Shown here: positions 8,960-38,148 of the stretch, piece after piece
Layout: each line of letters begins with the position of its first letter
Numbering within the stretch: position 1 is the stretch's first letter
Source: Eubacteriales bacterium
GTDB taxonomy: Bacteria > Bacillota > Clostridia > Saccharofermentanales > Fastidiosipilaceae
Reading direction: 5' to 3'
DNA length: 64,000 bases
NCBI GenBank assembly: GCA_030537565.1
Contig: JAUNVS010000003.1
Span: 1 to 64,000 of the forward strand
Translations under genes and position numbers: made by a program
The notes under the pieces: generated by a model
Seen by the model: only the letters and a program-made list of their open reading frames with translations
What the model was told of the DNA's origin: nothing
Database searches by the model: none

Positions 8960-9712
8960 ATGTTAGTAATTCGTTCACTACGACCCGAGCCCCTCGGGCG
9001 CTTACTGATTCTTCATCCGATCTGTTTCTCCGCCGAGGCTCTCGCAGAGCATCTCGGGGCTGGAGTCTGGAACCAGGACTATGATCTCCTCCTCTATGAC
9101 TTCGCTGGACATGGAGAACGTTCGGATGAGGTCTTCGTTTCCTATAGTGATGAACTTGATAATTTAAACGCAGAGATCCATGCTACTGGTCTCGGCGCAG
9201 CCACAGAGGTCCTCGGATTTTCAATTGGGGCCAATCTCGCTCTTATATATGCGGCGAATCACCCAGAGCTTCGTGCCCTTTATTGCGACGGACTCCTCTT
9301 CTGTATTGACCAGATGACCCTCCGCAAGAGCCAGATGAAGCTTGCCAATGTGAAGCGCCTGGCGATGAAGATGCCCGCCCTATGTAAACCTTTCTTACCG
9401 AAGTGTTGGACAGAGGCGGAGAAAAATCGTCTGATATCAAGCCTGCGTTCGATGGAAAAAGAAGATCTCGAGGCGATTCTCGAGGCATCCGCCTGGCCCT
9501 ATACGGCGCCGCTGCCAGACCTAGATGAGCGCCTGTTGGCGCATAGTCACTTCTTCTTCGCTGAGCGTGCCTATCAGTCGACCTGGATTCAGCTGATTCG
9601 CCGACATTATCCAGGTGCGAAGATCGAGATTTGGAAGAATCGTTCTTATCTCGAAGCGATCGCTGCGGATCCTGTAGCCTACTATGAGAAGCACATTTGC
9701 CCAGAGGCTTAG
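8960..9712 (+). CDS. Alpha/beta hydrolase
   Basis: About 250 residues. An alpha/beta-hydrolase core is visible: strand plus oxyanion loop LLILHP, the DFAGHGE turn, and the nucleophile elbow G-F-S-I-G with Ser88. The acid and His of the triad cannot be placed with certainty. It could be a thioesterase or small-ester hydrolase; the substrate is unknown. ATG 8960 is chosen because the earlier ATG at 8876 lies inside the likely -10 hexamer TATAAT and would add a segment unlike the fold. The ribosome site is weak, so the start is uncertain. The 3' end overlaps the converging cupin gene by 4 bases. Confidence 0.75.
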   Translation: MLVIRSLRPEPLGRLLILHPICFSAEALAEHLGAGVWNQDYDLLLYDFAGHGERSDEVFVSYSDELDNLNAEIHATGLGAATEVLGFSIGANLALIYAANHPELRALYCDGLLFCIDQMTLRKSQMKLANVKRLAMKMPALCKPFLPKCWTEAEKNRLISSLRSMEKEDLEAILEASAWPYTAPLPDLDERLLAHSHFFFAERAYQSTWIQLIRRHYPGAKIEIWKNRSYLEAIAADPVAYYEKHICPEA

Positions 9713-27268: not shown

Positions 27269-28432
27269 CTAGTTTTTGACCCATTCTTTAAATACAGCGT
27301 TTTCTGGCCCGTTTGAGGCATCGTAGAGGATGATCTGGCCGTCGCTACCGATGAGTAGTTTACGCCCACTGCTACCGAGGCTCTGGCTCGAGTCGAGGTC
27401 GCAGACGCTGTAGATCGAGCCTGGATGATACAGGTTTGCCGGAATGAACTGATCCACTGGCTTATCCGGGAAGACTCGCTCAAAGGGTGTTGGGCCTGCC
27501 ATGAAGTCCTGGCCGATGATCGATGCACCGTTTTCGATATCCGGGTCATCGAGGGAACGGTAGTTCGTCGGCAACTGTCCAAACTTCAGGTAGTATGCGA
27601 TGACATCGGTATCACTATTATAGAACGTGGTGGCCGTGATATCGAGGTAGACCTGGCGGACGTAGGCTTGGATTTCACTCGAAACCCGCTGTAGCTTGGC
27701 TTCATCATCTGCTGAGAGCGTGGGCGCTTGATCGCTTGGATTATTACCAGGGGCGTCGCCGGATGGAGCGCCATTATCTTCATCCTGGTGGCCAGCGTCG
27801 AGATTCCCGTCAGGATTATCATTCGGCGGGATGAGTTCGGCATTATCACTATTAACGTCGGGTGGTGTGATCACCGGATCGGTCGGGATTTCCTCAGGCT
27901 GGGTTTCAGGCTCGGGTTGGGGTGCCGGTGGCGTAGGCTGGGGCGCTGGTGCCGGAGGTGGAGCAGGTTGAGGTGCTGGAGCCGGCGGCGGTGCAGGTGC
28001 TGGTGGCGGCGCCGGCTGAGGGGCCGGTGCTGGCGGTGGTGCTGGTTGGGGTGCTGGTGCCGGAGGTGGTGCTGGTTGTGGCGCAGGAGCCGGCGGAGGT
28101 GCGGGAGCTGGCGGCGGCGCGGGCTGTTGGGGCTGCGGTGGACGTGGGCGCGGTGGCGGAGCCACTGGCTGGACAGGCTGGGCGCGGCCGTTCGTCGCAC
28201 GTAAGACTCGGCGCGTCGGTGTCGCCTTTTTATTCGCAGTGCTGCGATTTCTCTTCAGACGGCTCTTCACAGTGGCACTCGGTTTCGTCTGTGACGTGCT
28301 ATCTGCCGTCCGACTAATCTTCACCTGATCGGCATCATCGAGTTCAGCTTGGCGAGGTTTACAGGCACTGAGGCCCATCGCCAAAGTCAGTGAGAGACCG
28401 AAGCAAGCGATTTCTCGTAGATGTTTCTTCAT
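27269..28432 (-). CDS. Proline-rich lipoprotein with a barnase-like C-terminal domain
   Basis: 387 residues from ATG 28432 (AAAGGAG upstream). A lipobox L-S-A-C with Cys24 predicts a lipid anchor. Then come a basic segment, about 100 residues of P-P-A-P-A-P-Q-P-type repeats, an acidic Asn/Asp/Gly-rich part, and a ~110-residue domain. That domain runs parallel to barnase: A-Y-Y-L-K-F-G-Q-L-P-T-N-Y against barnase D-Y-L-Q-T-Y-H-K-L-P-D-N-Y, and later C-D-L-D...G-R-K-L-L...I-I-L-Y against A-D-I-N...D-R-I-L-Y...L-I-Y. In this alignment barnase Lys27, Glu73, Arg83 and His102 are all replaced. So the domain may share the fold but not the activity, perhaps binding RNA or a partner. The fold call is moderate in strength. 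Confidence 0.6.
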   Translation of the reverse strand: MKKHLREIACFGLSLTLAMGLSACKPRQAELDDADQVKISRTADSTSQTKPSATVKSRLKRNRSTANKKATPTRRVLRATNGRAQPVQPVAPPPRPRPPQPQQPAPPPAPAPPPAPAPQPAPPPAPAPQPAPPPAPAPQPAPPPAPAPPPAPAPQPAPPPAPAPQPTPPAPQPEPETQPEEIPTDPVITPPDVNSDNAELIPPNDNPDGNLDAGHQDEDNGAPSGDAPGNNPSDQAPTLSADDEAKLQRVSSEIQAYVRQVYLDITATTFYNSDTDVIAYYLKFGQLPTNYRSLDDPDIENGASIIGQDFMAGPTPFERVFPDKPVDQFIPANLYHPGSIYSVCDLDSSQSLGSSGRKLLIGSDGQIILYDASNGPENAVFKEWVKN

Positions 28433-29553: not shown

Positions 29554-32500
29554 TTAGAAGATGAATTTCCATGAGAGGAGAAGTAGGGTGACGAGGAGGA
29601 TGAAGCTGATCAGGAATTTACGGTTTACTGGGTTCCAGCTTAAGCGTCGGCTGAAGCGGGGGAATTCAACCCGCTGGGAGAGGAGGCGTTCGCCCTGGAG
29701 GTAGACGAGGAGGACGGCGAGGACGAGGAGGGCGATCAGGGCTGAGACTGCTGCTGCGAGGAGGCCAGCTTGGGCGCCGTGCTCACTCTGGGGGATTTCG
29801 GCGCGGAAGAAGGCCATCTTCGAGTAGAGGAAGACGAGTGTGAGGCTGTAACTAAAGTGGCAGGCCATTGAAGCGTAGATCGAACCGAGGCTATAGCGCA
29901 GCCATGCGAAGATATAGGCCGCCGCAAAGGCGAAGATGAGGTAGCGGTCGCGGAGGATGAGGCTGTATATAAGGGACGAGAGGAGGAGGGAGGAGTAGAT
30001 CCGTCCCGAGCGCATCATGCCTGTGAGGAGGATGCCACGCATGAAGAGTTCTTCGCAGAAGGTCGCAAGGGCCGACATCACGAGGACGAGGATGAGATCT
30101 TGGCTGAATCCATGGGTCTCCGGTAAGAAAAAGTACGGGTTCGGGAGACTGAGGCCGTTTCGTGAAATCATCCAACTGACGATCTTCGCTGAAGAGGAGA
30201 GTCCGATTGCCAGCGGCACGCCAGTGACGAAGCACATTAGGAGGCTGGTGCTCGAGAGGCTGCGCAATCCAGTCACTCGTTTTAGGGGGACGCTCAGCCG
30301 GTAGAGAACGAGGAAGGCGGGGAGGGAGAAGAGGAAGAAGAGTCCGAGGAGCTTATAGAGGAGGAACTGCTTGAAATCATTGTTGCAGAGGACAGCATCT
30401 GCATGCCCCGTCAGCTTCACAAATAGGAGGCTGATGGCGAGAAAGAGGGTGTAGAGGAGGAGGAGGCTGGCGGATTCGTTCCGGATTTTTTCTTTTAGCC
30501 GCAGGCGTTCGAGGGTCTGCTCGTTCATTCCGAGGCTGGCTTTTATCTTAGGTGCCTCGAAGAGGAGGGCATCGACCCGACGTAGTCCGCTCAATAACAG
30601 CTCTTTTGGAGACAGTTTTTGTTTCGACTTCTGCTTGCGTTCACCGCGATTTAGTTCGCGTAAATCGTTGCGATTGAGGAGACGTGGCTCATCGAGGTGT
30701 TGATCCTCACCAGCGGCGATTGCCGAGCTGGCGGCGTTTAGATCTGGGCTCGAGAGCGCATCACTCCGGCGTGGATAGCTCTGTGGGAAGCGTTGACGGC
30801 GCTCTTCGCCGACCTCGATGCGACGCTGCTTCGCTTCGCTGCCATCGATCTCGACTGCGTCATCTGTGGAATCACTCGAAAGACTGACAATTTCTTCCAT
30901 GAGGCGGAGATCATCGTACTCATCGCGGTAGCCCTCGGCTTCAGCAATCAGATAAGGATCGGGAAAGTCCTCATCATCCTCAAGTGCAAGCAAGCGCGCA
31001 TTTTCTTCCGCGAGCTTAGCTTCGGCTTCAGCGCTGAGACTGATTGTAGCCTGCTCTTCATCGCTGAACTTTGAAATCTCGGTAGCGTTCCCTGAGGCCT
31101 GCTGGCTCGAATCTGAATTCTCATGGACAGGGATCTCGGCATCCGCCGAATCCTCGTCGCCCACCTCTGCAGGGAAGAGCTTGCTTATATACTTCGCTGC
31201 CTCGACCTCATCTTGGTCGAGGAGTGCATAGAAGGTTTCGAGGGCTTCCGCCTCACGACGCTCGCGTTCAGCCTCTAAATCGGCTGCCTCTTCGGCTTCC
31301 TCATATTCATCGGCGAGGGCGGCATCATCCTCTTCATTTTCAATAATTTCCTCGAGGAAAAAGTCTCGGATTCGGTGGCGGAGGCTTGGTTTCGGCTCTG
31401 CTTCTGGCACTTCAGTCTGGGCCGGGGCTCCTGCAAGGTCCGGGGCGTATGGCTGATTGGTAGGGCCATAAGCTAGGTCTACTGACTCAGTCGCCATTTC
31501 GCCATCCGTCGGGCTTACTGGATAGACGGGCTCTGGAAGCTTACCTTCTCCTGTAGTGACCGGTGGCCACGAGGCTGTGGAACTTGGATTATGGGGAGGC
31601 TGGCCTGCGGCTTGGCTCGAACTGCCATCAAAGACGGTGGGTGGCTGACCTGCTGGGGGCTCAGCTGCTGGCGGCATCTCGAGGTGTGGCTCCTGTGGTT
31701 CGAGCGTGGTGCTCGGGACTGGCGACGGGGCATAGCCCTCAGGAACCCAATCTGGAGCCGGGAAGTCTGGCGCCGTCTCTGCGGGCTTAGACTTCTTAGA
31801 GCCAAATTTCTTAAAGAGCGACTTAAAGCCAGAGAGGACGGTGTTCGTTACCACTGTTGCTTCGCCGGCATCTTCGTCAATAGGCTCGAGGCCTGGCTCG
31901 TAGAGGGCAGGCATGTCCTCTCTAGGTGCCCTGAAATCTGCGCGTCGCTCGCGCTCTTCGGCTTCGAAAATCTCGGCCTCATGGACCTCAGTGGCGTTCG
32001 AAGCAGCGCGTTCGCTGGCGTCGACGAGGAGCTCGTCAGCGACAGCCGAGTCGTCGGTTTCGTCGCTTGGGGCGGGCATCAGGAAGTCCCCCTGGATCGG
32101 AGCCTCGGCTTGGAAATCCTCGCTGGCTTCGGGCTCTGGCTTCAACTTCGAGGTCAGGCGTTTGAAGACGCTTGGCGCAGAGGCGCGTTCACTCGCCTGC
32201 GGGAGCTCAGGCGCGCTCTTAGCCATCTCAGTATCTGCGCTCGTGTCGCTGGTTGTGTCGGCCAACTCAAGCTGGAAATCATTAAAGTAATCGCCATCCG
32301 ATGTGTTCCCCGAGGTGGCGCGGTAAATCAGTTCCGCCTCTTCATCGGCGACATCTGGGAGGACGGACGCAGTCGCAGGACGCACCTGTGCCTCGACCGT
32401 GCGGGGCTGGGTCTGACGTTCCTGTCCAGCCCGAATTCGGCGGATCTGGGACTCGTCAATTCCGAAGCGAGCGGCTTCGCTTTCGAGGAGGCGCCCCATG

Positions 32501-33222
32501 GCTCGAAATTCTGGTTCAGATAGATGGGTGTAATCCAGTCTAGCCGCCGTCTCAATAATCTGTGCTTCGTCGAGCTGGACTCTGCGAATCCCGCCCCCTG
32601 CAGCCGGCTGCTTCGCTGGCGATGGGGGCTGAATAGGCGCAGGGCCGCTCCAGGCGTCTACTGCATCCTCTGGGCTAAATGGAGCTGCCTCAGTGAAAAA
32701 GTCGTCCTGAGGCTGGATCTCGGAACTCGCTTCGGCGTCATAGCTTGCGGGATCGACGGCATCGTCTCGCTGGGCTAGCTCGTTATCGGCGTCGCTGGGC
32801 GCTGGCCCAAGTTGGGGCGAGAAATCCGGCCTGAGCAGGCCGCTCGTCGACACTGCATCGTCCTGCTCGGGAAGTGCGACGCCGGTCTCACTCTCGTCTG
32901 CATTTAGAAAATCACTATTGGATTCCGTCAAATCAGGACTTATGCGATGCGGTCTACGGTAAGCAAGATGCTCGCTTTCGGACTTATGTCTTGGCTCGCT
33001 CGCCGGGGCCGTAGGTGGCGCGCTGATCTCCGCTTTAAAGGGATCGGCTGCTACGACTGGAGCGTGCGGCTTCGCTGTATTTTCGAAATGATCTCCCGAT
33101 TCAATTTGTTCGGGACGAATGCGTCGAATTAGAGGCGTATGATCTGACCCGAGCGCATGGAGCCCAGCCCCCGTTTCGCCCTGGGGGGATACTTGGTTTG
33201 GATTTTGATCAGGTTTCTTCAT
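29554..33222 (-). CDS. CPBP-family membrane protein with ~915-residue disordered N-terminus
   Basis: 1222 residues. Residues ~920-1222 have about eight membrane helices and the CPBP (CAAX-protease/bacteriocin-processing) motif EELFMRG at Glu1057-Glu1058...Arg1062; the later H-F-S-Y-S matches the third motif. The second motif (FxxxH) reads Y-S-L-I-L, so one expected His is missing. Everything before residue ~915 is rich in Glu, Asp, Ala, Ser and Pro with no domain seen; it should lie in the cytoplasm. Within it are basic aromatic patches at about 351 (SVFKRLTSKLK), 464 (SGFKSLFKKFG) and 613 (SLRHRIRDFF). Usual CPBP proteins have 200-350 residues. The start is ATG 33222 with AGGGGAA eight bases upstream; ATG 33228 is too close to it. 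Confidence 0.85.
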   Translation of the reverse strand: MKKPDQNPNQVSPQGETGAGLHALGSDHTPLIRRIRPEQIESGDHFENTAKPHAPVVAADPFKAEISAPPTAPASEPRHKSESEHLAYRRPHRISPDLTESNSDFLNADESETGVALPEQDDAVSTSGLLRPDFSPQLGPAPSDADNELAQRDDAVDPASYDAEASSEIQPQDDFFTEAAPFSPEDAVDAWSGPAPIQPPSPAKQPAAGGGIRRVQLDEAQIIETAARLDYTHLSEPEFRAMGRLLESEAARFGIDESQIRRIRAGQERQTQPRTVEAQVRPATASVLPDVADEEAELIYRATSGNTSDGDYFNDFQLELADTTSDTSADTEMAKSAPELPQASERASAPSVFKRLTSKLKPEPEASEDFQAEAPIQGDFLMPAPSDETDDSAVADELLVDASERAASNATEVHEAEIFEAEERERRADFRAPREDMPALYEPGLEPIDEDAGEATVVTNTVLSGFKSLFKKFGSKKSKPAETAPDFPAPDWVPEGYAPSPVPSTTLEPQEPHLEMPPAAEPPAGQPPTVFDGSSSQAAGQPPHNPSSTASWPPVTTGEGKLPEPVYPVSPTDGEMATESVDLAYGPTNQPYAPDLAGAPAQTEVPEAEPKPSLRHRIRDFFLEEIIENEEDDAALADEYEEAEEAADLEAERERREAEALETFYALLDQDEVEAAKYISKLFPAEVGDEDSADAEIPVHENSDSSQQASGNATEISKFSDEEQATISLSAEAEAKLAEENARLLALEDDEDFPDPYLIAEAEGYRDEYDDLRLMEEIVSLSSDSTDDAVEIDGSEAKQRRIEVGEERRQRFPQSYPRRSDALSSPDLNAASSAIAAGEDQHLDEPRLLNRNDLRELNRGERKQKSKQKLSPKELLLSGLRRVDALLFEAPKIKASLGMNEQTLERLRLKEKIRNESASLLLLYTLFLAISLLFVKLTGHADAVLCNNDFKQFLLYKLLGLFFLFSLPAFLVLYRLSVPLKRVTGLRSLSSTSLLMCFVTGVPLAIGLSSSAKIVSWMISRNGLSLPNPYFFLPETHGFSQDLILVLVMSALATFCEELFMRGILLTGMMRSGRIYSSLLLSSLIYSLILRDRYLIFAFAAAYIFAWLRYSLGSIYASMACHFSYSLTLVFLYSKMAFFRAEIPQSEHGAQAGLLAAAVSALIALLVLAVLLVYLQGERLLSQRVEFPRFSRRLSWNPVNRKFLISFILLVTLLLLSWKFIF

Positions 33223-33250
33223 ACGCATCTTTCCCCTATTAATGTGGGTC

Positions 33251-33259
33251 ATTATAACA
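33251..33259 (-). promoter_or_regulatory. Extended -10 promoter of the CPBP-family gene
   Basis: Minus strand TGTTATAAT (TGnTATAAT), about 28 bases before the start codon. Confidence 0.6.
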
Positions 33260-33354
33260 CGTGCCTCCCAGTGGCTGTGCGGCAAGCTTTGCTGAAGCGT
33301 TACGATGCATAATATTTCAATTTGATGACAAAGCTAGGCTCGCTTCCAGGGCGA

Positions 33355-33476
33355 TTATCCACTGAACTGTCATCTCTTTTTCATCTTTAAGAAATGTGGA
33401 AAAGTGTGGCTTTTTGAGGATTGCGGCCCAACTTATCCACAATTTGGGGATAAGGCTTCGTGATCGACGTGGATAA
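33355..33476. promoter_or_regulatory. Cluster of five DnaA-box-like 9-mers
   Basis: Consensus TTATCCACA. Sites: TTATCCACT 33355-33363 (+), TTTTCCACA on the minus strand at 33395-33403, TTATCCACA 33433-33441 (+, perfect), TTATCCCCA on the minus strand at 33445-33453, TTATCCACG on the minus strand at 33468-33476. One perfect and four single-mismatch sites in 122 bases are far above chance. Confidence 0.65.
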
Positions 33477-33553
33477 GTACAATGATGCGCCCTTATTCGT
33501 TCGGGTGGATTAATTCACGCTGCCCCCTGAGTTTTGGATCTTTTCACTCGATT

Positions 33554-33580
33554 GTGACAAAGACGCCACAAATTTGTCAC
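33554..33580. promoter_or_regulatory. Inverted repeat GTGACAAA-N11-TTTGTCAC
   Basis: Perfect 8-bp arms about 120 bases before pth, followed by CGTTTTGTTAT. It could be an operator or a weak terminator-like hairpin. Confidence 0.5.
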
Positions 33581-33700
33581 CGTTTTGTTATCGCTCATTT
33601 GCCTAAAATGCAGTCCCCAATTCTCCTCAGGACGGGCGAATCGGCTTATCTCCGTGGCACTTTTGTGTCATGATCTGGGGGATTAAGAGGAGGGTGTATT

Positions 33701-34363
33701 TTGGAAGTCGAGAAGTTTTTAGTGGTCGGTCTCGGAAATCCCGGGGATCGCTACCTCCGTACCTGGCATAACCTGGGTTTTATGGCCCTCGAAGTCCTCT
33801 CCCAGATCTATGGGATTGAGCCGAAGCGGGCGAAGTTCCGAGGCCTCTATGAGAAGCTGAGTTTGGCAAAGGGGGAGGCGCACGCCAAGCGACTTAGGCG
33901 AGAGATTCCGAACGTTGGACGACGGGGCTTACCGCCTCAGCCCGAGCGAGAGATTATCTTTCTCAAACCGATGACTTATATGAACCTGTCTGGCGAGTCG
34001 GTGGCTGCCGCGGCTAGATTTTTCAAAATCCCACCGGAGCGGATTCTCGTTTTTTACGATGATGTCGATATCCCCCTCGGTGAGATTCGGATACGAAGTC
34101 GGGGATCTGCAGGGACTCATAACGGTATGCGCTCGGTCGTCTGTCAGCTCCATAGTCAGGATTTCCCCCGGATTCGAATCGGTTGCGGGCCCCAGCCAGA
34201 ACAGTGCGATATTGTCGACTTCGTCCTCGAGCAGATCCCGAAGTCGGCTCAGGGCCGCTGTTTTGAAAGCCTCGAGCTAGCGTCGACGGCTGCCCGTCTC
34301 TGCTTCTATGACGGGGCTGACTTTGCCCAGAACTATATCAACACCCTCTTGCAGAAGAAGTGA
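33701..34363 (+). CDS. pth: Peptidyl-tRNA hydrolase
   Basis: 220 residues. Active-site residues are visible: Asn13 in GLGNPG, catalytic His23 in TWHNLGF, the K-P-M-T-Y-M-N-L-S-G motif, and Asp in Y-D-D-V-D. It frees tRNA from stalled peptidyl-tRNA. A small insert (residues ~57-80, basic) precedes the KPMTYMN motif. The start codon is TTG 33701 with AGGAGG about eight bases upstream; no ATG or GTG in frame fits. It is followed by mfd after eight bases, the common pth-mfd pair of Bacillota. Confidence 0.95.
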   Translation: MEVEKFLVVGLGNPGDRYLRTWHNLGFMALEVLSQIYGIEPKRAKFRGLYEKLSLAKGEAHAKRLRREIPNVGRRGLPPQPEREIIFLKPMTYMNLSGESVAAAARFFKIPPERILVFYDDVDIPLGEIRIRSRGSAGTHNGMRSVVCQLHSQDFPRIRIGCGPQPEQCDIVDFVLEQIPKSAQGRCFESLELASTAARLCFYDGADFAQNYINTLLQKK

Positions 34364-34371
34364 GGAGTCCT

Positions 34372-37300
34372 ATGGAGCAGGAACTAGAGTTACAGTTAGC
34401 GGCTGAGAAACGTGCGAATTTCCTTCGAGCTGCAGAACGCGATCCCAGTTTCGTGGCGCTTCGCTCGGCGATTACAGATTATTTTTTTGCAGCAAAATCA
34501 GAGAGGCGACTGCGGATTAATCTCCAGGGGATGGGGGAGTCGCTGAAGCCCTATCTGATTGCGGCACTCCTCGAACTGCTGCCCGATTTAAAAATCCTCT
34601 ACATCGAGTCCGATGAACTGAACTTCCGACGGGATGAACGTGATTTCGAGGCCCTCCTCGGAGTGGCTCCTGCCGTCTTTCGCCCCCGAGAACTTGAGTT
34701 TCGCGAGGTCGATGCCACCAGCCGTACGACTGAGATCGAGCGCCTCGCCTGTCTCCATCAGATGCAGAGCGGAGCGGCGCGTCTCGTCCTCGCACCCGTG
34801 ACGGCTCTCAGTCAGCGCCTCGCTTCGAGGGCGAAGCTCGATGCCCGCTATGAGATCTCTGTGAATCAACGCCTCGATCAGGCGGAATTACGTGAGCGTC
34901 TCGTCGCCCTCGGTTTTGAAGCCCTACCGCATTGCGAGGGTCTCTCGCAGTTCTCTCAGCGCGGCGACATCATCGACTTCGTGCCGCTTGCCATGGATGC
35001 TGAGGTGGATTACGGCGTGCGCATCTCGTTCTTCGATGACGAGATCGACCGCATCGATCGCTTCGATCTCGATACCCAGCGCAGCTTGGAACGCCTCGAG
35101 AGCGTTGAGATCCTCAGCCAGAGAGAGCTGGAACTGAGCGCGGCTGACTATCAGCGCCTGGCCGAGCACCTCGAAGAGGCGGGGGCCGAGGCGCGCCGAC
35201 GCATCATACGTCAGGGGGGTAAGCTGGAGTCGGCCCGTAAGATTGAGAGCCTCTACCTCCGAGATGCCGAGCGCTGCCGCACGGCTGAGCGCTTTCCTGC
35301 CCTCGACCGCTATCTCGACTTCATCTTCGGGGAGTCGGCGCTGAGCCTCGTCGACTATGCCGCTGAGCATGGCTATCTGATCATCGTCGATGAGCTTCTC
35401 CGTTGTCAGGAGCGCCTCGATCGCCAGGCTGCCCAGGCCTATGAGGATATGACGATTCTCATCGAGCATCAGGATGCCCCGAATGAGATTTTCGATGCGA
35501 ACTGGCGTCCGGATGCCGTGCTTCGGGGTCTCGATTCGAAGCCAGCCCTCCTCAGTCTCGCGGCTCTGCCTCAGAGTGGTAATGGTTTGACTGCGGCGAA
35601 GGAAATACAGATATATGCCCGAGAAGCGGAGCATCGTCATGGCCTCGAGCTTCAGATGCTTCGGGAGTTTCAGGAGCGAGAGGCTCGAGGCGAGTCGAGT
35701 TATATTCTCTGTAGTGATCCAGATTTACGTGAACGTCTGCGTGCTTTGATTTTCGAAAACTGTCCGGGACTAAAGGATCCTTTCCTCGATTTTGAATTGA
35801 GTCATGGTTTTGAGTACCCTGCAGCGAAACTCTACGTCCTCTCACGGGAGGAGGTCTTTGCATCCCGACGTAATCGCCGTAAGAGACGGAGCAAGACGGC
35901 TCAGACGGGGGCGCCGATTGCACTCTTCACGGAACTTAAACCCGATGAGCTCCTCGTCCATGATGATTTCGGTATTGGAATTTACCGTGGACTTACCCAG
36001 CTAGAACACCACGGTGCAGTCCGCGATTACCTCCAGATTGAGTATGCAGGCGGCGATAAGATTTACCTGCCGATGGATGCGCTCGACCAGATTCAGAAAT
36101 ACATCGGTACAGGGGATAATTCAAAGGTTAAACTTTCACGCCTCGGGGGCCAGGACTGGGAAAAGGCGAAGTCTAGGGCTCGTGATTCGATTAAGGTTCT
36201 GGCGACTGACCTCGTCGAACTCTATGCCAAGCGCCGCCAATTAAAGGGTCATGCATTTCCACCGAAAACGCCTTTTGAGGCGGATTTTGCGGCTCGTTTC
36301 GACTACGAGGAGACGAACGATCAGCTCCAGGCCCTCGATGAGATCTGCGCCGACATGGAGAGCGATCGGGTCATGGATCGCCTCCTCTGTGGCGATGTTG
36401 GCTTCGGGAAGACGGAGGTTGCATTCCGAGCCATGTTTAAATGTGCCTGCGATTCGAAACAGGCGGTTCTCCTCGCTCCGACGACGGTGCTCTCTCAGCA
36501 GCATTACGAGACCCTCCTCGAGCGACTGGGGGATCTGCCGCTGCGCGTCGCCCTCCTCAATCGCTTCGTGGCGGCAGCGGATCGGAAGAAGATCCTACGA
36601 GCGGTCCAGCGCGGTGACGTCGACATCCTTATCGGCACCCACCGCGTCCTCTCAAAGGATGTGAAATTTGCCGACCTCGGTCTCCTCGTCGTCGACGAGG
36701 AACAGCGTTTCGGCGTCGATCATAAGGAAAGCCTCAAAGCAAAATATCCAGAGGTCGACGTCCTCACCTTAACCGCGACGCCGATTCCCCGCACCCTCCA
36801 CATGTCGCTCTCGGGGATTCGAGATATCTCGGTCCTCGAAGAGCCACCAGAGAACCGACGGCCGGTGCGAACCTTTGTCATGGATTACGACGAGGGCATC
36901 GTCGCGGACGCCATCCTTCGGGAAATCAATCGCGGCGGCCAGGTCTTTTACCTCTTCAACAACGTCGAAAAAATGCCTGCTGAACAGGCGAAGCTCGAGC
37001 GACTCCTCCCAGATGCGCGCATTGTCATGGGCCATGGCAAGATGAGTAGCAGCGAGATCGAGGCGGTGATGGAGACTTTCTTAAAAGGAGAGGCTGATAT
37101 CCTCCTCTGTAGCACGATCATCGAGAGTGGGATTGATATTCCAAACGTCAACACCCTCATCGTCTGTCACTCCGATCGCTTCGGTCTAAGTCAGCTCTAT
37201 CAGATTAAGGGACGGGTCGGTCGTTCAACGCGCCAAGCCTACGCCTATTTCACCTATGAGCGCGAAAAAGTCCTCAATGCTGAGGCTCAGAAGCGCCTCA

Positions 37301-38148
37301 TCGCTCTCAGAGAATATACGGAGCTCGGTTCTGGCTTTAAGATTGCGCTTAAAGATCTCGAGGTTCGAGGCGCGGGTAACCTCCTCGGTGGTGAGCAGCA
37401 TGGGCAGATGGCGGCAATCGGCTATGAGCTCTACTGCCGTATGCTCGACGAGGAGATCGAAGCCGCGAAGTGGGCCAGTGTCGCCGAAGAGAACGAGGAC
37501 TTCGTTTCGGTCCGCAAACTCGAACGGGCCGAGGACTTCCAAGCGGCGTCGGCAGCCAGCTCCAGTCAGACCTCGGGAATTTCCTTCTCTGCTAAAGCGA
37601 AGAGCGAAGCCGTTGATAAGTCTGGCCCGAGATTTCGAGACGCCCATACGAGTCGCCGTGCGCGTTCGCTCGAGACCCTCATCGATCTCAAAGTCGATGC
37701 CTTTATCCGAGCCGATTATGTGCCCGATGAGAGTGCCCGCGTCGACCTCTACCGTCGCATCGTCCGCATTGAGACTTATGCAGACTATCTCGACCTCCAA
37801 GATGAGTTCCTTGACCGCTTCGGCGATCCACCGCCAGCGATCAGTCAACTCCTCGATGTCGCCTATGTTCGCGCTCGGGCGAGTCGTCTCGGCTGCGTGC
37901 GGATTTGCCGCCAAAAGTCGAGTCTTTGCCTCGAGATGAGTAAGGATTTGAGCCTCGGCATGGGTGAGGTGACGGCCCTCATGGCTGGTCCATATCGGGC
38001 CAATCTGCGTCTCGATCTCGGCCAGCACCCAGCTCTCTACCTCCTCGACGTACCCGCGAAGAATGAGGCGGCCCTCGAGCTTCTCCGCAAACTATTTTAT
38101 GAGGGGGAACGAGAAGCTGAGAAGATGAAGGGGGAGGCCAGCTCTTAA
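34372..38148 (+). CDS. mfd: Transcription-repair coupling factor
   Basis: 1258 residues (family about 1150-1180). In order: UvrB-like N-terminal module, RNA-polymerase-interaction domain (KPDELLVHDDFGIGIYRGL), translocase motor with Walker A GDVGFGKTE and box DEEQRFG, TRG region (GSGFKIALKDLEVRGAGN), and the C-terminal D7 domain. About 60 extra residues, rich in Ser, Ala and Lys, sit between the TRG region and D7 (around 37490-37680). ATG 34372 has AGGAG four bases upstream; the GTG at 34360 overlaps pth. Mfd removes stalled RNA polymerase and recruits UvrA. Confidence 0.96.
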   Translation: MEQELELQLAAEKRANFLRAAERDPSFVALRSAITDYFFAAKSERRLRINLQGMGESLKPYLIAALLELLPDLKILYIESDELNFRRDERDFEALLGVAPAVFRPRELEFREVDATSRTTEIERLACLHQMQSGAARLVLAPVTALSQRLASRAKLDARYEISVNQRLDQAELRERLVALGFEALPHCEGLSQFSQRGDIIDFVPLAMDAEVDYGVRISFFDDEIDRIDRFDLDTQRSLERLESVEILSQRELELSAADYQRLAEHLEEAGAEARRRIIRQGGKLESARKIESLYLRDAERCRTAERFPALDRYLDFIFGESALSLVDYAAEHGYLIIVDELLRCQERLDRQAAQAYEDMTILIEHQDAPNEIFDANWRPDAVLRGLDSKPALLSLAALPQSGNGLTAAKEIQIYAREAEHRHGLELQMLREFQEREARGESSYILCSDPDLRERLRALIFENCPGLKDPFLDFELSHGFEYPAAKLYVLSREEVFASRRNRRKRRSKTAQTGAPIALFTELKPDELLVHDDFGIGIYRGLTQLEHHGAVRDYLQIEYAGGDKIYLPMDALDQIQKYIGTGDNSKVKLSRLGGQDWEKAKSRARDSIKVLATDLVELYAKRRQLKGHAFPPKTPFEADFAARFDYEETNDQLQALDEICADMESDRVMDRLLCGDVGFGKTEVAFRAMFKCACDSKQAVLLAPTTVLSQQHYETLLERLGDLPLRVALLNRFVAAADRKKILRAVQRGDVDILIGTHRVLSKDVKFADLGLLVVDEEQRFGVDHKESLKAKYPEVDVLTLTATPIPRTLHMSLSGIRDISVLEEPPENRRPVRTFVMDYDEGIVADAILREINRGGQVFYLFNNVEKMPAEQAKLERLLPDARIVMGHGKMSSSEIEAVMETFLKGEADILLCSTIIESGIDIPNVNTLIVCHSDRFGLSQLYQIKGRVGRSTRQAYAYFTYEREKVLNAEAQKRLIALREYTELGSGFKIALKDLEVRGAGNLLGGEQHGQMAAIGYELYCRMLDEEIEAAKWASVAEENEDFVSVRKLERAEDFQAASAASSSQTSGISFSAKAKSEAVDKSGPRFRDAHTSRRARSLETLIDLKVDAFIRADYVPDESARVDLYRRIVRIETYADYLDLQDEFLDRFGDPPPAISQLLDVAYVRARASRLGCVRICRQKSSLCLEMSKDLSLGMGEVTALMAGPYRANLRLDLGQHPALYLLDVPAKNEAALELLRKLFYEGEREAEKMKGEASS

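Follow-up and report, generated by a model that had tools for sequence, protein, structure and literature searches.

Bacillus subtilis carries clusters of DnaA boxes outside oriC near ywlC, ywcI/vpr, yydA, gcp/ydiF, yqeG-sda, and trmE. Such clusters are high-affinity DnaA sites (PMC4447404), and deletion of the six leads to early initiation (PMC5295017; PMC13220808). Their effect is measurable; how initiation is limited in Gram-positive species that lack Hda, SeqA, datA, and DARS is unsettled. In Escherichia coli, datA is a noncoding cluster of DnaA boxes off oriC that lowers active DnaA (PMC5742627), the elements DARS1 and DARS2 have a three-box core (PMC4585315), and DnaA is found in vivo mainly at paired boxes 2–3 bp apart (PMC11317965).

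Here we describe a cluster of five DnaA boxes upstream of pth in a stretch of 64,000 nucleotides, referred to as the window, together with arrays of DnaA boxes in related genomes. The cluster comprises several boxes in noncoding DNA, exceeds what chance would give, and lies away from dnaA–dnaN; it is a non-oriC DnaA-box cluster. Although this is a known kind of element, the loci reported here and the order-wide architecture of the arrays appear to be undescribed in searchable papers; no description of DnaA arrays at the pth, glmU, or proA loci was found in open-licence papers. We infer, with a probability of roughly 0.55, that the cluster binds DnaA and functions like those of B. subtilis, titrating DnaA and/or tuning the expression of pth–mfd.

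Like the B. subtilis clusters, the arrays of the Clostridia are intergenic, usually lie away from dnaA, and tend to the origin half of the chromosome. They differ in their loci, which are the pth operon, proA or rpiB/upp, and hpf, and in that the arrays of the relatives are built as a fixed triplet (gaps of 3 bp and 0 bp) with extra flanking motifs. The window cluster resembles datA in being noncoding and off oriC, whereas datA works with IHF, a factor that B. subtilis lacks; compared by box number, the core of three in the relatives' arrays resembles DARS1 and DARS2. With the clostridial oriC (dnaA–dnaN, oriC2 of C. difficile) it shares the box consensus (PMC7561715), but it is not beside dnaA and shows no skew change.

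A Five-Box Cluster in the Divergent Intergenic Region Upstream of pth

Boxes were counted with at most one mismatch to TTATCCACA. A sequence-only reading of the window had reported one perfect and four single-mismatch boxes within 122 bases between diverging genes, and all five are present (table 1). The cluster spans 122 bp and ends 225 bp upstream of the pth start (225–346 bp). The switch in gene orientation noted in the same reading was likewise confirmed, with 13 of 20 genes running leftward on the left of the cluster and 17 of 19 running rightward on its right. The start of mfd overlaps the end of pth, and the divergent gene for the CPBP-domain protein probably starts at an ATG near 33222–33228. 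Among named genomes, a scan gave only distant relatives of Mfd (41–42% identity, in MAGs of Clostridia and Oscillospiraceae), and it is on these matches, together with gene order and the related genomes, that we place the window in the Clostridia. The inverted repeat between the cluster and pth looks operator-like.

Table 1. Features of the window at and around the DnaA-box cluster.
Feature	Position	Strand	Basis or remark
Long protein with CPBP (Rce1-like) domain, divergent neighbor	29554..33285	-	Pfam PF02517, E = 2e-11
Divergent intergenic region with cluster	33229..33700		Sequence and ORFs; ~470 bp
DnaA box TTATCCACT	33355–33363	+	1 mismatch to TTATCCACA
DnaA box TTTTCCACA	33395–33403	-	1 mismatch; variant also frequent at relatives' dnaA loci
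DnaA box TTATCCACA	33433–33441	+	Perfect
DnaA box TTATCCCCA	33445–33453	-	1 mismatch; orientation opposite to that of the perfect box, 3 bp away
DnaA box TTATCCACG	33468–33476	-	1 mismatch
Inverted repeat GTGACAAA-N11-TTTGTCAC, between cluster and pth	33553..33582 (approximate by 1–2 bases)		Sequence
pth, peptidyl-tRNA hydrolase	33701..34363	+	Pfam PF01195, E = 4.6e-53
mfd, transcription-repair coupling factor	34360..38148	+	Pfam TRCF, CarD_TRCF_RID, DEAD, UvrB_inter

A chance origin of the cluster is ruled out. The 1,593,927 bp of the genome contain 345 boxes of this stringency (no more than one mismatch). At that density, a genome should have about 5e-6 clusters of five boxes in a span of 122 bp. 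When the intergenic region (468 bp) was shuffled 20,000 times with dinucleotides preserved, five boxes were never reached (maximum, 3). Box density outside the window was sampled by pattern searches and retrieved stretches. In these stretches the perfect boxes stand singly or in pairs, except one at dnaA–dnaN, and no equally dense place was seen among the matches listed for TTATNCACA and for TTWTCCAC (100 of 105 for the latter).

The Replication Origin Lies on Another Contig

Five boxes at a switch in gene orientation could mark a replication origin, a possibility that the sequence-only reading had raised as doubtful, having seen neither dnaA nor an origin-type skew change in the window. Both of those observations hold. 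The genome carrying the window is assembled in 81 contigs, and its dnaA is found on contig C43, beside a gene that we call dnaN from our reading of the sequence. The dnaA–dnaN intergenic region contains four boxes with at most one mismatch, fifteen parS-like sites that agree with TGTTNCACGTGNAACA in at least 12 of its 14 positions occur within ~26 kb, and the GC skew flips there from about -0.1 to +0.14. No such flip occurs at 33.4 kb of the window's own contig (C22), where the skew is positive on the left and weak or mixed on the right. When plus- and minus-strand genes were averaged, which removes the gene-strand effect, the third-position GC skew was positive on both sides of the cluster; therefore a single replication fork probably crosses the whole window rightward, meeting the left-hand genes head-on. 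Moreover, pth lies 388–397 kb from dnaA (0.22–0.24 of the chromosome) in three complete or near-complete relatives (G001, G005, and G008), one of which is in three contigs with a rounded genome size. An oriC at the cluster is thus ruled out, its probability being practically nil: dnaA–dnaN, boxes, parS-like sites, and skew flip lie together on C43, and a joint position of dnaA and the skew change elsewhere is what the sequence-only reading had named as excluding an origin.

Two regions of C43 near dnaA, at 9087–9396 and 27712–28145 (L231 and L230), carry regularly spaced parS-like TGTTCCACGTGGAACA sites, four of them at exactly 103 bp and six at alternating distances of 60 and 126–127 bp. In the complete relative G001, three single-mismatch boxes form a cluster (C1, 569348–569484) no more than 200 bp from the GC-skew maximum at 569296, the putative terminus.

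Arrays at the pth Locus of Related Genomes

A scan of relatives found box clusters upstream of pth in G004, G006, G030, and G041; G056, in which a PTS-like membrane gene precedes pth, has one at a greater distance upstream. We then took the tandem core TTATCCACATTATCCACA as a query against 188 genomes of the order, allowing at most one mismatch and using the reversed pattern as a control. The core was found at 49 places in 33 genomes, compared with 3 for the reversed pattern. Twenty of the 49 places are upstream of pth, glmU–pth, or the PTS-like membrane gene, with neighbors read by eye and one pair probably representing the same site on overlapping contigs of G041. Several members of the window's family carry arrays upstream of pth or its operon, as do most genomes in a second family of the order. 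Their boxes show the consensus that these organisms have at their dnaA loci.

Copies of the pth-type element can be aligned across ~145 bp, with two CGTGAAAC repeats ~40 bp apart followed by GTTATNCACA-N3-TTATCCACA-TTATCCACA, and often with TTTTCCACA ~15 bp beyond the last box. The array thus has three head-to-tail boxes with gaps of 3 bp and 0 bp, often preceded by the two CGTGAAAC repeats; the first of these gaps falls within the 2–3 bp preferred in vivo by E. coli DnaA (PMC11317965). A profile of this element matches the pth operon regions of G001, G003, G004, G006, G010 (~1.5 kb upstream of glmU), and G011; it also matches the end of a contig of G007, a site that cannot be linked to pth. 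It should be noted that representation within the family is not complete: a cluster at the pth operon is absent from G002, G009, and G005, and in G008 the region upstream of glmU has only three boxes, which are scattered. In the complete relative G001, the sequence examined holds only three clusters of at least three boxes, one of them at pth, 395 kb from dnaA.

The window cluster takes the same position upstream of pth as the relatives' array, with five boxes in mixed orientations. The profile of the relatives' array (R1) has no match in the whole window, its best local fragment reaching 6.3 bits (E 0.006 in a 1.1-kb search), and no head-to-tail pair of boxes 0–3 bp apart occurs in the cluster even when weaker boxes are included. 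An architectural copy of the relatives' array was therefore rejected by the profile search, which was run with filters off. On this comparison, position and box content, and not a fixed architecture, are what the window and its relatives have in common, and we read the window copy as a diverged example of the array. It has lost the relatives' fixed architecture and may be weakened; this difference from the relatives is the chief weakness of the case for the window locus itself. The conservation that had been proposed as a check on function is accordingly found in part: organized arrays do stand at the same locus in relatives, but their architecture is not that of the window and some family members have no cluster.

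The Tandem Core at Other Loci and across the Clostridia

A second location accounts for 23 of the 49 core places, which are upstream of proA. The box triplet recurs in this proA-type element, while the motif upstream of it differs and ends in TTGTCC. Many genomes have an rlmL-like methyltransferase gene in front of the element. A different family keeps the triplet but has rpiB–upp or upp in place of proA; therefore the array outlives a change of the downstream gene. As for a proA-type array in the window's genome, proA itself was not found in an assembly that is ~84% complete.

Across the class, the 18-base tandem core was found in 189 of 391 sampled Clostridia, against about ten genomes for the reversed control. 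It is usually away from dnaA, yet in dnaA's half of the chromosome: of 18 matches away from dnaA in 12 single-contig genomes and G001, 16 are no farther from dnaA than 15% of the genome length, and none is farther than 25% (p = 0.013 against a uniform spread, using family means and genome sizes mostly rounded to 0.1 Mb). The contexts vary by clade and include the upstream regions of hpf and of an amino-acid ABC transporter and sites near tsaD, among others. Such arrays, conserved at particular loci within an order and sharing a core that roughly half of the Clostridia sampled possess, offer short, specific, and testable sites in this class, and would let the titration model be tested by deletion in cultivable Clostridia.

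A tandem array upstream of hpf, the ribosome hibernation factor gene, was seen in several other Clostridia (L265, L267, L271, L277, and L279). In L278 (G439, C4), ~300 bp separate tandem DnaA boxes from the 3′ end of tsaD (gcp); the gcp/ydiF cluster of B. subtilis is in this neighborhood too, hinting that the two may derive from a shared ancestral site.

Possible Functions of the Cluster

As a site of titration, the cluster would bind several molecules of DnaA at a distance from the origin, and DnaA held there would be withheld from oriC. Its duplication after initiation would leave less free DnaA and delay re-initiation, as has been proposed for the B. subtilis clusters, and DnaA at the cluster may additionally modulate transcription of pth–mfd. 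The sequence-only reading had offered a DnaA-titrating or DnaA-regulated site as its alternative to an origin, a suggestion to which the arrays conserved at pth in relatives lend support. The same reading also named the CPBP gene as one that might be controlled, but a conserved target is unlikely to be found there because the arrays of relatives mostly adjoin other genes.

How far the neighboring genes matter is the main point on which the readings differ. The cluster could be a DnaA-regulated promoter at which bound DnaA represses or activates pth–mfd or the CPBP gene, tying translation rescue and repair to the state of replication. Its distance of 225–346 bp from the pth start would suit this, as would the location of the arrays upstream of a gene start in most relatives and the regulation by DnaA of genes adjoining its clusters in B. 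subtilis (PMC4447404). The downstream gene is inconstant, however, being pth, glmU, or PTS-like at one locus and proA or rpiB/upp at the other, the distance from array to start codon varies widely, and no convincing promoter was seen beside the cluster, although this last is a weak test; we regard a dedicated promoter as somewhat unlikely. That the array is retained next to differing downstream genes favors DnaA bookkeeping over control of a single gene, and titration is most likely the function of the cluster, with transcriptional effects on its neighbors possible. A wider version of this idea, which we put forward only tentatively, is that the Clostridia possess a class-wide fixed platform of three head-to-tail boxes (gaps of 3 bp and 0 bp) with a lineage-specific co-motif, placed in the origin half of the chromosome and persisting through gene turnover, which would act as a gene-independent controller of DnaA and a counterpart of datA/DARS; the window cluster would then be its diverged copy at pth.

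Two further readings concern what the cluster does beyond, or no longer does by, binding DnaA. An element similar to datA or DARS would change the nucleotide state of DnaA, through ATP hydrolysis or ADP release. The fixed spacing of the relatives' arrays and their two co-conserved CGTGAAAC repeats suggest an ordered complex with a second factor, as this would require; but IHF, datA, and DARS are absent from B. subtilis (PMC13220808) and the window cluster is without fixed architecture, which makes such an activity distinctly improbable here. The same loss of architecture relative to the family, along with the family members that have no clear array and the failure to find proA, the landmark of the other array, in this ~84% complete assembly, would also fit a relic, a once functional ancestral array now decaying in this lineage and no longer of consequence. 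Decay of an array of three or four boxes should leave fewer than the five boxes with at most one mismatch that stand in 122 bp, and a relic is in our view unlikely. Titration of DnaA, with or without an effect on pth–mfd, remains our preferred reading of the cluster.

The conserved repeats flanking the arrays hint at a possible unknown partner of DnaA. The CGTGAAAC repeats are co-conserved with the DnaA boxes in pth-type arrays, for example in L125 (252–397) and L127 (1893–2038). Some copies depart from parS (TGTTNCACGTGAAACA) at one or two positions, TATTACACGTGAAACA at a single defined one, which suggests that the partner may be ParB-like or another protein. At the dnaA loci of the relatives, no palindromic parS was found, and for this reason the likeness of the repeats to parS is simply noted.
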